This document shows positions 22,607 through 28,561 of a stretch of 64,000 bases of DNA, piece by piece. A program made the position numbers and the translations under genes. This stretch comes from Rhizobiaceae bacterium. Its GTDB lineage: Bacteria > Pseudomonadota > Alphaproteobacteria > Rhizobiales > Rhizobiaceae. The stretch is from contig JACVCH010000003.1 of NCBI GenBank assembly GCA_016742175.1, forward strand, positions 1 to 64,000, in the 5' to 3' direction. The notes beneath the pieces were generated by a model, which searched no databases, was not told the DNA's origin, and saw nothing but the letters and a program-made list of their open reading frames with translations. Each line of letters begins with the position of its first letter. Position 1 is the stretch's first letter.

Positions 22607-25600
22607 TTACTTCAGGCGGCCGCTCGCATGGGCAAGCATCGTATAGACCTTGCCGGTGTCGGAGGTCAGGTAGGTCTGCGACATCATGTTGTCGCGGTCG
22701 TTCTTCGCCACGTCCGAGAGCAGCTTCTCGAAATCCTGGCAGTACCGGTCGACCGCGCCGCGGAACTCGCCGTCATTCTGGTACTTGCGGCGGATGTCGT
22801 CGAAGGTCTGCTGGCCCTTCAGCGTGTAGAGGCGGCGCGTGAAGACGTTACGCTCGCCCTTGCGGTAGCGATCCCACAGCTCGACCGAAGCCTCGTGGTC
22901 GATCGCACGGGCGATATCCACCGACAAAGAGTTGAGCGATTCGACCATCTGCAGCGGCGAGCGCTGCGGCTGGACCGGCTTCGGCGCGGGCGCCTCGTCC
23001 TTGGATGCGCCGCGCAGCAGCGCGCCGACCCAGCTTCCGCCGGCCTGCTGGCCCTGCGGAGCCGCAGGCTCGGCCAGCGATCCGCGCAACTGCGTGGCGG
23101 CCTGCGGCGCGGCGACGGGTGCAGCCGGACGCGGGGCAGGCGCCGCCTGGCGCTCGATGCGGGCCGGGGAGACGTCGAAGGTGCGGCCGGACTTGGAGAC
23201 GATCTCCGAAAGCTCCTTCAGCGCCTTGATCTGCTCGGAAACCGCCTTGCGCATCGCGCTCGTCGATTCCTTCGTCTCCTCGGGCAGTTGCATCACGCCC
23301 TTCTTCAGTTCCGCGCGCGTCTGGTCGAGTTCGGTTCGGATCGTGCCGGCCGTCTTGCGGATTTCGTCGGTCGCATCGGCAAAGCGCTTCGTCGCGCTTT
23401 CGACGACCTCGGAAATGGCCGTGCGGATCTGTTCCGTCGAGGTTTTCGTGCGGCCTTCGGCGCCTTCCAGCGCCTTGCCGATCACGCCCTCGAAGGACCG
23501 CATGACGCGTTCGATCTCTTCCGACTTCTTGACGAGGCCGGCGGCTAGCGTCTCGAGCGCCGTCTGGCGGTCGTCGAGCGAGGTCGCCAGCGTCGACTGC
23601 GCCGCGTTCAGGAGATCGCGCGCATTGGTCAGCATCTTGCCGTGGTCCTCGAAGCGCGCGGCGATGCCGGAAACGTCGCGCAGCGTCGTCGAAGACAGTT
23701 CCGACAATTTGCCGGCCTGCGCCTCGATGATGCGGGCCGACGAGGCGAAGGAACGTGCGGCCTTTTCGGTCGTCTCGGCAAACTGCTCCGTGGTGCCGGC
23801 AAGCTTCTCGTCGACGCCGCCGAGATTGGCCGAGGCCGTCTCGACGAGTTCGCCGAGGCGGGCATTCGATGCCGACAGACGGCCGATCAGCCCGTCGACG
23901 CCGCGCGTTAGGTCGCCCTGGACGCGCTCGACGGCCGAGACCGTCTCGCTCGTCTTGGCATCGAGAGCCGACACCAGCGCAGTGTTGCCGGTCTGAAGCC
24001 GCTCGGCAGCCGCCTGCGTGATCTCTTCGAGATTGCGCTGCAGGTCCGTGCTGCTTTCGGTGAAGCGGTCGACCAGCGGACGCGCCGTCTCGTCGAGAAT
24101 GCGGGCAATCTCGGACGAACGCGCGGCCAGCATGGCATTGAGCTGGCGGGTCTTCTCGTCGAGCCTGTCGGACGCGCCTTCGGTGCTCTCGTCGATGTGG
24201 CGGTTCATCGCCGCGAACGTCTCGGCGATCGCATTGGCGCGCTCGACGAGTTCGGATTCGACGCGCGCGACCTGTTCGGCCAGGCGGTCGCCGACGGTGG
24301 CCGCGCCATGCGTCAGACGCTCCTCGGCGGAAGCCACCTGGCTCTCGATGCGCGAGGTCAAGAGGCTGGTGCGATCGGCGAGCGCCTGGTCGGCCGCGGC
24401 CAGCGCTTCGGCGATGGCGCCCGCGCGGGCGTCGAGTTCGGCCGAGGTCTGGTGCGTGCGCGCCATGATGCGCTGCTCGGCCATGTCGAAGGTGCGCGCG
24501 AGTTCGTTGGCGCGCTCCTGAAGGCGCTCGTCCGAACCGTCGAGCACACTGGCGATCTCGCCGGCACGGGCCGACAGAGCGGCCTGCGTCTCATCGAGGC
24601 GCACGACGATCTGGCGGTCGGCGTCGGCGAAGACGTTCGACAGGTCGCCGGCGCGCGCCGTGAGCGTGTTCGCCGCCGCATCGGTGCGCGAAAGGAGGGC
24701 GTTGCCCGCCTCGTCGAACCGGCCGACGACATCGTCCGCGCGCCCTTCGAGCACGCGGGCGGCATCTTCCGTACGCGTTGCCAGCGACTGGCCGGCCTCG
24801 TCGAAGCGGGAGACGACTTCGTCGGCGCGCGAAAGCAGGCTGACGCGGATTTCGTCGGCCTTGCCGGCGAGGTTGCGGTCGGCCTCCTCGACGATCTGCG
24901 CGAAATCGCCGGCGCGGGCGGAAAGCGACTGCGCCGCATCGTCGACGCGCAAGGTCAGGCTGCGCTCGGCCGTCTCGAAGGCGGCGACGACGTCGCCGGC
25001 CCTGTCGCTGAGCGCCGCCGCGCGCTCTTCGGCGCGGGCCGCAAGCGATTCGTCGGCCTCGGCGAAGCGGTCGACCATTTCGGCCGCTCGCGAGAACAAG
25101 GTCTGCGTGCGCTCGTCGAAGCGGTCGGCCAGCGCCCGGTCGGTGTCCTCGAAGCGCGAAGCGATTTCGTCGGCGCGCGCGGTCATGAGTGCGGCGCGTT
25201 CCTCGATGCGGCCCGCGATCTGGCGGTCGCTGTCATCGAGGCGGGCGGCGATCTCGTCGGCCTTGGCGCCCAGGGTCGCCGCCGTGCGCTCGACACGGTC
25301 GGCGATCTTCTGGTCGACGTCGATGAAGGTCTGCCCGGCCTGTTCGCCCATCGCCGCGGTCGCTTCGAGCACCTTGTCGCGCAACGAGCCGGCAACCACC
25401 ACGGCGCTGCTTTCGAGCGCGCCGCGCACATTGTCGACGCCGATCTTCAGCGCGCGCTCCATCGTCTGGGTGCGCTCCTCGATGACGCCCGTCTGGCGCC
25501 CGAACGCATCCTCGATCCGCGCGACGTCGCTGGCGATCGCGTCGGTGATCAGCGAACGGCGCTCGCCGAGCGCCTCGATGTGGCGCGTGAAGGCCTGCTC

Positions 25601-28306
25601 GACCTTGTCCATGTCGATGTCGATCGTGGCCGCAAGCTCGTTCTGCTTTTCGGCGAAGAGGTCGATCTGGCGCAGGAAGGTCTCGTCGATCCGGCCCATG
25701 TCAGCGGCAATCGCGCCGGTGAGTTCGTCCTGCCGCGCCGCGAGCGTCGCGATGTGGCGGGCGAAGACCTCCTCGACCTTCTGCGCATCGCCGGCAATGG
25801 CGCCGGAGAGTTCCGACTGGCGGTCGCCGAGCTGGCGCGCGAGCTGGCCGAACAGTTCGCCGAAGCGCTCGGCACCGCGGTGAACCGCGTTCTCCATCTC
25901 CGACTGGCGCAGCGAGATCGCCTCGATCTGTCGCGCAAATGTTTCATCCATGCGCGCGACGTCGCTGTCGATGCGCGCGCCGAATTCGCCCTGCCGCGCG
26001 GTGAGCGCGTCGAACTGGCGGTCGAAGGCCGCCGAGATCCGCTCCATGTCGGCGTCGATCGCCGCCGAAAGGCCCGACTGGCGCTCGGCAAGACGCTCGA
26101 TCTGCCGGTCGAAGGCCGTATCGATGTTCGAGACCTCGCTGCCGATGGCCGCCTGCAATTCGCCCTGGCGGGTGCCCAGCGTCTCGATGCCGCGCAGGAT
26201 GAGGTCGTCCATGCGCTCGGCATCGGCGGCGATGGCGGCGGAGAGCTCGGCCTGGCGCTCGGCCATGCGGTCGATCTGGTTGGCGAAGGCGTCCTCGACG
26301 CGCGCGGTGCCGGAGGACAGCGCCGTCGTCAGGTCGGATTCGCGCTCGGCGATCGTGCGGACATGCTGCGAGACGGCGTCGTCGAGCCCGCGACGCGTCG
26401 CGTCGAGCAGGTCCATGTCGTCCTTGAGCGCGATGGCGAGGCGTTCGCGGCCTTCCACGAGCCCGGAGATCTGGCGTTCGATCGCGACGTCCATGTCGCG
26501 CTGCGTGTCGGCAAGGCGCACGATGTCGTCATTGAGCGCGTTGGTGAGGAGCGAGCGGCCTTCGGCCATGCGCTCCACATGGCTGGTGATGGCGTCGTCC
26601 ATCGCTTGGCGCGTCTCGGCGAGGCGCTGCAGGTCGTCGTCGAGGGCGGCGCTGATGAGGTTGCGGCTTTCGCCGAGCTTGACGGTGAAGTCCGCCGAAC
26701 GCTCGTCCAGCATCGCCGAGGTCGAGGCGACGAGGTCCGTGAAGTCGGCGCCGATCCGCGCCTTCGTCTCGTCGAGCAGCACGTTGACCTGCTGCTTGCC
26801 GTCCGTGAAGGTCTGCGCGATCTCCTTGGTGCGGTCGATCAGCGTGTCGTTGATCTGCTTGGCGCGCGCTTCGAGCGCAGCGTTGAGCTTCTGGGTGCCG
26901 GTGTCGAGCGCCTGTGCGCGCGTTTCGAACTGGGAGAGGAGCGACTGGCCGCGTTGCTCGAGCGTGCGCTCGATGCCGCGAAGGCGGGTGTCGAACTCGT
27001 CGGAAAGCGAGCGGGCGGAGCTGCCGAGCAGCGAGATCATGCCAGTGGTGCGGTCGTCGAGCATCTGCGACAGCGCGCGGGTGGCGTGGTCGGTCGCATC
27101 CGTCAGCGAGGCGATGCGCGTGTCGAGCAGGCTCGCCATCGCGTCGCCGGAGGTCGAGATGCGGTCGGAAATGGTGTCGATGCGCAGGTCGAGCGCGTCG
27201 CTGAGCGACGTGCCGCTCTGGTTCATGCGCTCGATCAGCGAGGCGCCGCTGTCGGCGATCGTGCCGGACAACTGGCCGGACACGTCGACGATATTCTGGC
27301 GGATGACGTCGCTGGCAGCCGACAATTCGTCCTTCAGCGTCTCGTGCGCGCCGGCGATCGAGGCGCGGACGCGCTCGGCATGGCTGACCACCGCCTCGCG
27401 CTCGCTGCCGAGCCCGTCGACCAGCGCGCGGATGCGCGTCTCGTTTTCCGAATAGGCGCGCTCAAGTTCGTTGACCTCGGTATGGACGAGCGTCTCGAGT
27501 TCGACAGCGCGGGCAAGCGTGCGCTCGATGCCTTCGCCCATGGCCTGCACTTCGCGGCGCACGGCCTGGCCGACCATCATCACGCGATCGGTCGCGATAT
27601 GCTCCGGCTCGGCGAGGCGGAAGGCGACTTCCGTCATGGATTGAGCGGCATAGCGCATTTCCTGCGCGCGGCGGATCATCACCGCAAAGCCCCAGAACAG
27701 GATGACCGGCACGATGATGCCGAGCGCCAGACCGAGCGCGTAGGGCGCGGCGATGAATTCCGCGATCGAGCCGATCTGCCAGATCTGCGGCGAGAAGAGG
27801 AGGTGGCCGACGAGAAGGCCGGATGCGGCCCACACGACCGACAGCAGCGCGACGACCCAGTAGACGGTGCTCGGCACCGGCTTGGAAATGCTCTGGACGA
27901 AGGACTTGTAGTCCTTCTGGCGGTCGTCGTTTGCGGCGGCGAAAGCGGAGGGGCGGGCGGAGGCCTGCGCTTCGACGGGTTGGAGGTCGGCGATGCGGGT
28001 GGGGCCGTCATTGGCGGCCTTGGTGAGCGCGACGGGAGCAGCGGCCGCGGCAGCCGGAGCAATCGTGTCGGCAGGCGCGGCATCGCCGTCGCTCGATTCG
28101 ATGTCGCGATTTTCCATCGCGAGCTCTTCGGCGGCCTGCGAAATCTGCGCCTCGAAATCTTCCATCGATGCGGCGATGTCGAGACTCTCATCTTCCGGCG
28201 CTTCCGGCTCGTCGTCATCCATGACGAGTTCGATATCGAGAGCGTCTTCGAGCTCCTTTTCGATATCGGTGTCGAGTTCCTTGTTTGTCGCCGGTTTCAT
28301 CGCCAT
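22607..28306 (-). CDS. gpr: Growth-pole-ring-like giant membrane-anchored coiled-coil protein (GPR/RgsE family)
   Basis: A 1899-residue protein. The acidic cytoplasmic N-terminus (1-100) is followed by an Ala-rich stretch. Two membrane segments follow (about 148-170 and 183-211), then about 1400 residues of helical repeats (apolipoprotein A1/A4/E-like), a low-complexity Pro/Ala region (about 1700-1770), and a compact C-terminal domain (about 1790-1899). Residues 561-668 are three 36-residue repeats. Residues 674-963 are ten 29-residue repeats with Phe (once Ile) at the same position. Residues 1014-1274 are nine more 29-residue repeats of another type. Architecture and size match Agrobacterium GPR and Sinorhizobium RgsE, which form a ring at the growing pole and are needed for unipolar growth. 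The assignment is by architecture, not by alignment. Confidence 0.85.
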   Translation of the reverse strand: MAMKPATNKELDTDIEKELEDALDIELVMDDDEPEAPEDESLDIAASMEDFEAQISQAAEELAMENRDIESSDGDAAPADTIAPAAAAAAPVALTKAANDGPTRIADLQPVEAQASARPSAFAAANDDRQKDYKSFVQSISKPVPSTVYWVVALLSVVWAASGLLVGHLLFSPQIWQIGSIAEFIAAPYALGLALGIIVPVILFWGFAVMIRRAQEMRYAAQSMTEVAFRLAEPEHIATDRVMMVGQAVRREVQAMGEGIERTLARAVELETLVHTEVNELERAYSENETRIRALVDGLGSEREAVVSHAERVRASIAGAHETLKDELSAASDVIRQNIVDVSGQLSGTIADSGASLIERMNQSGTSLSDALDLRIDTISDRISTSGDAMASLLDTRIASLTDATDHATRALSQMLDDRTTGMISLLGSSARSLSDEFDTRLRGIERTLEQRGQSLLSQFETRAQALDTGTQKLNAALEARAKQINDTLIDRTKEIAQTFTDGKQQVNVLLDETKARIGADFTDLVASTSAMLDERSADFTVKLGESRNLISAALDDDLQRLAETRQAMDDAITSHVERMAEGRSLLTNALNDDIVRLADTQRDMDVAIERQISGLVEGRERLAIALKDDMDLLDATRRGLDDAVSQHVRTIAERESDLTTALSSGTARVEDAFANQIDRMAERQAELSAAIAADAERMDDLILRGIETLGTRQGELQAAIGSEVSNIDTAFDRQIERLAERQSGLSAAIDADMERISAAFDRQFDALTARQGEFGARIDSDVARMDETFARQIEAISLRQSEMENAVHRGAERFGELFGQLARQLGDRQSELSGAIAGDAQKVEEVFARHIATLAARQDELTGAIAADMGRIDETFLRQIDLFAEKQNELAATIDIDMDKVEQAFTRHIEALGERRSLITDAIASDVARIEDAFGRQTGVIEERTQTMERALKIGVDNVRGALESSAVVVAGSLRDKVLEATAAMGEQAGQTFIDVDQKIADRVERTAATLGAKADEIAARLDDSDRQIAGRIEERAALMTARADEIASRFEDTDRALADRFDERTQTLFSRAAEMVDRFAEADESLAARAEERAAALSDRAGDVVAAFETAERSLTLRVDDAAQSLSARAGDFAQIVEEADRNLAGKADEIRVSLLSRADEVVSRFDEAGQSLATRTEDAARVLEGRADDVVGRFDEAGNALLSRTDAAANTLTARAGDLSNVFADADRQIVVRLDETQAALSARAGEIASVLDGSDERLQERANELARTFDMAEQRIMARTHQTSAELDARAGAIAEALAAADQALADRTSLLTSRIESQVASAEERLTHGAATVGDRLAEQVARVESELVERANAIAETFAAMNRHIDESTEGASDRLDEKTRQLNAMLAARSSEIARILDETARPLVDRFTESSTDLQRNLEEITQAAAERLQTGNTALVSALDAKTSETVSAVERVQGDLTRGVDGLIGRLSASNARLGELVETASANLGGVDEKLAGTTEQFAETTEKAARSFASSARIIEAQAGKLSELSSTTLRDVSGIAARFEDHGKMLTNARDLLNAAQSTLATSLDDRQTALETLAAGLVKKSEEIERVMRSFEGVIGKALEGAEGRTKTSTEQIRTAISEVVESATKRFADATDEIRKTAGTIRTELDQTRAELKKGVMQLPEETKESTSAMRKAVSEQIKALKELSEIVSKSGRTFDVSPARIERQAAPAPRPAAPVAAPQAATQLRGSLAEPAAPQGQQAGGSWVGALLRGASKDEAPAPKPVQPQRSPLQMVESLNSLSVDIARAIDHEASVELWDRYRKGERNVFTRRLYTLKGQQTFDDIRRKYQNDGEFRGAVDRYCQDFEKLLSDVAKNDRDNMMSQTYLTSDTGKVYTMLAHASGRLK
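24485..25267 (-). repeat. Array B: nine 29-residue (87-bp) repeats within the GPR-like gene
   Basis: Each unit starts with Arg or Lys in a pattern like RADEVVSRFDEA and continues with an xLxxRTE stretch. The starting residue is at 1014, 1043, 1072, 1101, 1130, 1159, 1188, 1217 and 1246 of the protein, with no indel. After this the spacing becomes 18 (1264) and then 29 again (1293). Confidence 0.85.
25418..26287 (-). repeat. Array A: ten 29-residue (87-bp) repeats within the GPR-like gene
   Basis: Units follow a pattern like FDRQIERLAERQ, then ELxxAI and a DxxRIDxx end. The leading Phe is at residues 674, 732, 761, 790, 819, 848, 877, 906 and 935, with Ile at 703. The spacing is exactly 29 throughout. 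Confidence 0.88.
26303..26626 (-). repeat. Three 36-residue (108-bp) repeats within the GPR-like gene
   Basis: Units start at residues 561 (RLAETRQAMD), 597 (RLADTQRDMD) and 633 (LLDATRRGLD), each followed by a matching ...ERMAEGRSLLTNAL-like half. The array joins directly onto array A. Confidence 0.8.
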
Positions 28307-28561
28307 GCCGCACTACCCTATACTATCCGCAGCGGGTCACCGTATTCGGCTTGAAACCACCCGCCAGTTGAGGCCCAATTCGCCCATTTCGTATCGTATC
28401 GGCACAGAGCCGGGATGGGAACTCGCAATTCCGGGCATGTGTAAAACTTTAAACATAAGGTTAACGCGGCTCAACGCAGATGAAAGATTCCTTGGCCCAG
28501 CGCCGCGAATGCCACCGGCCGCGTTAACCGACCGTCCATTCCCGGCACGCAGCATCCAGAA

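Follow-up and report, generated by a model that had tools for sequence, protein, structure and literature searches.

Whole-turn repeats in a GPR/RgsE-type protein of a Rhizobiaceae bacterium and their possible place in a phase-keeping helical rod

Why should one bacterial protein carry two successive arrays of 29-residue repeats, with different cores and a single shared period, and what kind of structure might such a period build? We addressed this question for a gene on the reverse strand (22607..28306) of a 64,000-nucleotide stretch of contig JACVCH010000003.1 from a Rhizobiaceae bacterium (positions 1 to 64,000, hereafter the window), whose open reading frame comprises 1,899 aa and a stop codon. 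The product has predicted N-terminal membrane segments, a long predicted helix with a match to PF01442 (the apolipoprotein A1/A4/E family) and conserved termini, all of which are traits of Agrobacterium GPR and Sinorhizobium RgsE. Its assignment as a GPR/RgsE-type protein rests on this architecture and the Pfam match rather than on direct alignment to Atu1348 or SMc00190. Homologue matches were present in all 41 genomes searched (its own included; the others carry labels of the same genus, family or order), and the named near relatives of the window protein are Aliihoeflea and Mesorhizobium strains. A further open frame of 1,385 residues lies antisense to the repeat gene (24197-28354, forward strand) and is probably a by-product of the codon use of that gene. 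The neighbouring genes, of the MazG type downstream and of the CPA2/Kef antiporter type about 3.5 kb upstream, were also considered and gave no lead.

The layout of the protein places the arrays in the middle of a long rod, with every feature below encoded on the reverse strand. A hydropathy scan detected a pair of hydrophobic segments, at residues 146-172 and 180-214 (27665..27871), which form a predicted membrane anchor. They are followed by an N-terminal rod with an 11/22/33-residue pattern (residues 235-540; 26687..27604), recognized from lags of 33, 22 and 11 in residues 210-540. About three units of 36 residues (29+7), identified from consensus units and from a 36-residue gap in the related locus L034, occupy residues 537-644 (26375..26698), just ahead of the first array. 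Array 1 consists of ten 29-residue units (residues 674-963; 25418..26287) and array 2 of nine (residues 1014-1274; 24485..25267), both supported by register, autocorrelation and profile. No proline occurs over the 1,175 residues from 235 to 1409. Beyond these lie a C-terminal rod (residues 1410-1675; 23282..24079), a Pro/Ala-rich linker recognized by composition and alignment (residues 1676-1784; 22955..23281), whose length differs among relatives, and a C-terminal helical domain that is highly conserved in an alignment of 17 rows (residues 1785-1899; 22610..22954). For none of the families in our profile searches did the best stretch fall in this last domain, a fold search with the model of the domain gave no PDB match at E <= 0.001, and the AlphaFold model itself was of low confidence (pLDDT 58.2). 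In a relative, L049, the C-terminal Pro-rich linker is expanded by repeated proline/glutamate-rich motifs.

The arrays themselves are real. As originally predicted, Phe (once Ile) recurs at all ten positions of array 1, with F at 674, I at 703 and F at 732, 761, 790, 819, 848, 877, 906 and 935. The register of 29 also held for all nine units of array 2; the Arg/Lys unit starts assigned to 1014, 1043 and so on to 1246 lie one residue later, at 1015, 1044 and onwards to 1247, the former positions being A, S, D or G and the second position of the unit profile being R in eight cases and K in one. The change of spacing after array 2, from 1246 to 1264 (18 residues) and on to 1293 (29 residues), is as described. 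The repeats had been called exact, which is true of their unbroken spacing and not of their sequences, since any two units share on average 9.9 of their 29 residues in array 1 and 10.2 in array 2. A 29-residue peak stands well above background, with lag-29 identity exceeding all 2,000 shuffles in both residues 540-963 (0.268 versus a shuffle mean of 0.083, z 13.5) and residues 1000-1290 (0.363 versus 0.105, z 14.3). This signal persists when only polar residues are scored against a null that preserves the hydrophobic pattern. Read from the unit profile, the hydrophobic stripe advances through each unit in steps of 4-4-3, 4-4-3 and 4-3, equivalent to two hendecads and one heptad, with a polar break at unit position 12 of array 1, which is Gln.

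The period implies a helical pitch distinct from that of heptad coiled coils. Hydrophobic power over the arrays peaks at 3.620-3.624 residues per turn and is only 0.0-0.6 at 3.5, which bears out the proposal of a period near 3.625. The value falls in the range that distinguishes hendecad/heptad coiled coils (hydrophobic periodicity of 3.60-3.667) from those at 3.5. The expectation of a nearly straight stripe was likewise upheld: with the pitch fixed at 3.63, the phase remains within about 170 degrees in windows whose first residue lies between 221 and 1453, and drifts off in those that begin later. This pitch is a property of the family: across 56 GPR rods, sampled as 1,130 overlapping 120-residue windows with peak power of at least 6 (L050, which is cut by a contig end, was left out), the median is 3.642; 91% of windows fall in 3.58-3.69 and 1% reach no higher than 3.55. 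Fourteen SMC proteins from the same genome set, analysed as a control, gave a median of 3.488 and 0/81 windows in 3.58-3.69; the method therefore detects heptads where they are present. An undistorted helix has 3.63 residues per turn, and hendecads are described as nearly untwisted (PMC9858780).

We consider that the repeats are the middle part of a membrane-anchored, nearly untwisted, self-associating rod of hendecads and heptads that turns over by phase-preserving amplification, an explanation to which we give a probability of roughly 0.57. Each 29-residue unit, as 11+11+7 residues in eight turns, would contribute to one narrow and almost untwisted hydrophobic stripe. At 3.63 residues per turn this stripe would keep to one face of an undistorted helix, such that partner helices could lie side by side with little supercoiling, and rods would pair through the stripe into a straight coiled coil. 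By analogy with what has been published for GPR of Agrobacterium and RgsE of Sinorhizobium, a rod of this kind, anchored in the membrane, would hold the polar growth machinery. Self-association through the stripe and straightness in three dimensions are both inferred from the pattern of residues, to which the charges also contribute. On one flank of the stripe, at -60 to -80 degrees from its centre, every position is Arg in both arrays, and on the other acidic residues reach 0.45 at +60 to +80 degrees in array 1 and 0.78 at +40 to +60 degrees in array 2, as expected for salt bridges with a partner helix. Array 1 is also acidic on its Arg flank (0.40 at -60 to -40 degrees), so that the asymmetry is not clean. 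A second point sits against self-association: hendecads are expected to have small core residues or to form higher oligomers (PMC9858780), and the core of array 1 is Phe.

Structure prediction added little to this picture. The AlphaFold model of residues 540-1300, computed as a monomer, shows long but low-confidence helices (pLDDT 62.8, pTM 0.22) with no pairing or usable arrangement, and AlphaFold is said to have difficulty with hendecads (PMC11676326). The same model bears on whether the rod instead folds back on itself, with arrays 1 and 2 as antiparallel partners in an intrachain bundle. Such a bundle would suit the presence in a single chain of two arrays that share a period but differ in their cores. 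It would also suit a break in the helix, of low confidence, that separates the arrays near residues 966-975; other such breaks lie inside the arrays. The lack of any confident overall arrangement and the independent variation in copy number of the two arrays within the genus make this fold very unlikely.

A more substantial alternative, raised by the original prediction, is that the stripe faces lipid, with the rod lying flat on the inner membrane in the manner of apolipoprotein or perilipin 11-mers. The PF01442 match of the window protein scores 96.5 bits over 8 stretches, above the curated cut-off of 90. Apolipoprotein A-IV is the best PDB sequence match of residues 561-1274 (E 0.005 and 0.007), a period of 3.6-3.67 would suit a flat-lying helix, and GPR has been classed as apolipoprotein-like (PMC8262873). 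The weight of the family match was examined by permutation in residues 300-620, a region ahead of the arrays. These residues score 57.4 bits against PF01442, three class-preserving permutations that remain 42-45% identical to the original keep 54.5, 45.6 and 39.8 bits (69-95%), and full shuffling leaves no score. The match of this region therefore appears to be largely one of pattern. Apolipoprotein class A helices have basic residues on both flanks of the hydrophobic face. In array 2, basic residues at 0.53 (60-80 degrees) and acidic residues at 0.70 (120-150 degrees) are class A-like on one side; against a lipid-facing role, the flanks are asymmetric overall, with Arg on one side and acidic residues on the other (less cleanly in array 1), and the units are net acidic (-2.1 and -2.6 per unit in the two arrays). 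The stripe is also narrow. Large hydrophobic residues in array 1 lie mostly within 60 degrees of its centre (0.00-0.10 beyond), and those of array 2 reach up to 0.25 at 80-100 degrees. The pattern of stripe and charge and the apparently pattern-level Pfam match of residues 300-620 lead us to favour the self-associating rod, with some confidence lost to the deletion result discussed below, and a lipid-facing helix is weakened to an unlikely option. The original observation of the arrays was confirmed, and its interpretation partly supported.

Comparison of relatives shows how the middle of the rod changes. Our set comprised 55 full-length rows (the window protein and 54 loci) and two loci cut by contig ends (L050 and L059). 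Excluding the latter two, stop-to-stop frames range from 845 to 2,956 residues and a Pro-free stretch of at least 600 residues is found in 47 of the 55 rows. By unit profile, a count that covered 29 of the 57 rows (5 of the genus and 24 others), five genus members have 10, 10, 12, 10 and 10 copies in array 1. The scored copies in array 2 are 9, 8, 9, 7 and 8; the counts for L031 (8) and L033 (7) each skip one weak unit. Relative to the window protein, rod indels are 58 residues in L032, 29 in L033 and 36 and 29 in L034, with none in L031. A conserved period with varying copy number, as anticipated, therefore applies within the genus and finds no support beyond it, where the sequences and often the lengths of the units differ. 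Among the 24 rows outside the genus, profiles of the window units found at most two array-1 and four array-2 matches per row at a strict threshold.

Other units take the place of the 29-residue repeat in these more distant relatives. Autocorrelation of polar residues alone, scored against the same kind of null as above, detected a significant unit in 37 of 52 loci and none in 15 (L031-L034 and L050 were left out), including a unit of 22 in 13 loci and of 40 in L035-L037 and L048. Units of 36 occur in L040 and, together with 29, in L044, L046, L047, L049 and L059; units of 33, 62 and 76 were found in L070, L067 and L066, respectively, and one of 51 together with 29 in L051. Consensus units were derived for 23 chosen arrays. 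A quick tree built from the conserved ends implies no fewer than 14 changes of unit label among the 40 rows that carry a label, a rough figure since the branches are long, the labels were set by hand as one per row, multiples such as 66 were treated as states of their own, and L050 and L059 were left out. Near-identical DNA in successive units shows recent amplification in some relatives. L053 has seven pairs of adjacent 22-residue units, whose DNA identity is 98% in one pair, 100% in another and 70-95% in the remaining five.

What unites these units is that most span whole helical turns. Of 61 primary unit calls, 55 lie within 0.5 residue of a whole number of turns (chance 0.28), the six that miss are at 66, 72, 88 and 99 residues, which are multiples of shorter units, and the heptad multiples 28, 35 and 42 are absent among these calls. 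When all significant lags are taken and not the primary alone, 103 of 143 fit. Indels follow the same rule. In 16 nearest-neighbour pairs of at least 60% identity, with the rod defined from residue 250 up to 300 residues short of the end and L050 and L059 left out, 42/48 rod indels were within 0.45 residue of whole turns compared with 9/107 outside the rod (chance 0.25), and indels of 1-6 residues made up 1/48 in the rod versus 86/107 outside. Gap lengths in pairs below 80% identity may carry a bias of the aligner, which at 80% or more has little freedom in gap placement. In the nine pairs at or above this level, some of which share members, all ten rod indels (36, 29, 58, 29, 29, 58, 87, 18, 47 and 22 residues) are within 0.3 residue of whole turns.

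This pattern could have arisen by mutational bias only, if unequal recombination between similar repeats inserts whole units irrespective of helical phase. Tandem arrays with near-identical DNA units do exist, and the within-genus indels of 29, 58 or 36 residues are what such a process would yield. By itself, however, it leaves unexplained why units of 22, 29, 33, 36, 40, 51, 62 and 76 all fit, and why the rod has almost no indels of 1-6 residues, which are common outside it. As the whole explanation we regard mutational bias as somewhat unlikely; it may well contribute, and it is compatible with the structure that we propose. In the proposed self-associating rod, evolution would proceed by tandem gain and loss of units, and units of very different sequence and length would be kept if their length approximates whole helix turns, as sums of 11 and 7 do. 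We infer from this a selection for phase.

The scale on which phase is kept is local. Among 22 near rows, the outer anchors are 546 to 1,379 residues apart, and the ends of the rod are fixed around this variable middle: the anchor distance is 245 aa in the N-terminal rod of 19 rows (longer by 51, 110 and 204 in the other three) and 150 aa in the C-terminal rod of all 22. A phase kept from end to end across species was considered and rejected, as the resultant was 0.19 over 35 distinct lengths and 0.30 over the 16 nearest in length (L050 and L057 were left out, the latter for lack of one anchor). Phase is not preserved over the total length of the rod, and the rule is therefore one of local stripe continuity and not of a global register. 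The conserved feature is local helical phase, satisfied by mixed blocks of 11 and 7 residues.

Published deletions bear on how strict this phase might be. The short coiled-coil deletions made in Agrobacterium GPR are given as 21 residues in the abstract and 20 in the text (PMC8262873), which by our calculation would rotate the stripe by 77 or 177 degrees, respectively, at a pitch of 3.63. Their reported effects are mixed: interference beside the wild type was strong, and one of them, A-IV-1cc, complemented significantly by itself and formed paired foci (PMC8262873). This partial tolerance of a short deletion counts against a strict phase requirement.

We can also ask whether the length of the rod matters. 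At 0.15 nm per residue, simple arithmetic gives a rod of about 176-219 nm (residues 235-1409 or 215-1675), similar in magnitude to the Agrobacterium ring, which is published as 200 nm. A broader and rather unlikely proposal, which we advance tentatively, is that GPR rods act as phase-keeping rulers of variable length. Local phase and fixed ends would be selected, the sequence and length of units and the length of the rod would drift, rod length would determine how large the growth-pole ring is in each species, and the apolipoprotein label would reflect a convergent pattern and not descent.

How does this rod compare with known systems? The protein family is known, and the phase-keeping repeat rule, as read from these sequences, appears not to have been described. 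We found no description of hendecads in rhizobia in the literature searched, which consisted mostly of papers outside subscription, and a search of the same scope for growth pole ring and coiled coil gave PMC8262873 only. The 2023 hendecad survey of Martinez-Goikoetxea and Lupas, known to us through citations, may already cover this family. The closest parallels are Agrobacterium GPR and Sinorhizobium RgsE, which are reported to have two N-terminal membrane segments, a very long helix, PF01442 and an important C-terminus (PMC8262873, PMC7327166). They differ in being described by apolipoprotein domains and coiled-coil regions, and the terms repeat, heptad, periodic and residues per turn are absent from the main text of PMC8262873. 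A phase rule would replace these 'apolipoprotein-like domains' in a polar-growth scaffold and is testable by deletions of chosen length. The apolipoprotein A1/A4/E family shares an amphipathic 11/22-residue pattern and a score above the cut-off, whereas the window protein has its long Pro-free span, its narrow stripe and a match that, for residues 300-620, largely survives class-preserving permutation. SF-assemblin, with Scy a precedent for composite repeats, is a rod with a 29-residue repeat (PMC6070942); unlike the window protein it is eukaryotic and predicted to be a segmented coiled coil, and the likeness drawn here is one of repeat length.

Streptomyces Scy and FilP provide a functional parallel, as polar-growth scaffolds in which the composite repeat of Scy is 51 residues in 14 turns (PMC3718342), and they are described as rich in hendecads (PMC9858780). 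They are Gram-positive proteins, in contrast to GPR, and have a DivIVA-like N-terminal motif in common. A tandem 51-residue unit, of the same length as that of Scy and with no known kinship to it, is present in residues 409-612 of the open frame of L051. The comparison suggests that GPR and Scy, as unrelated polar-growth scaffolds, reached near-untwisted composite repeats independently.
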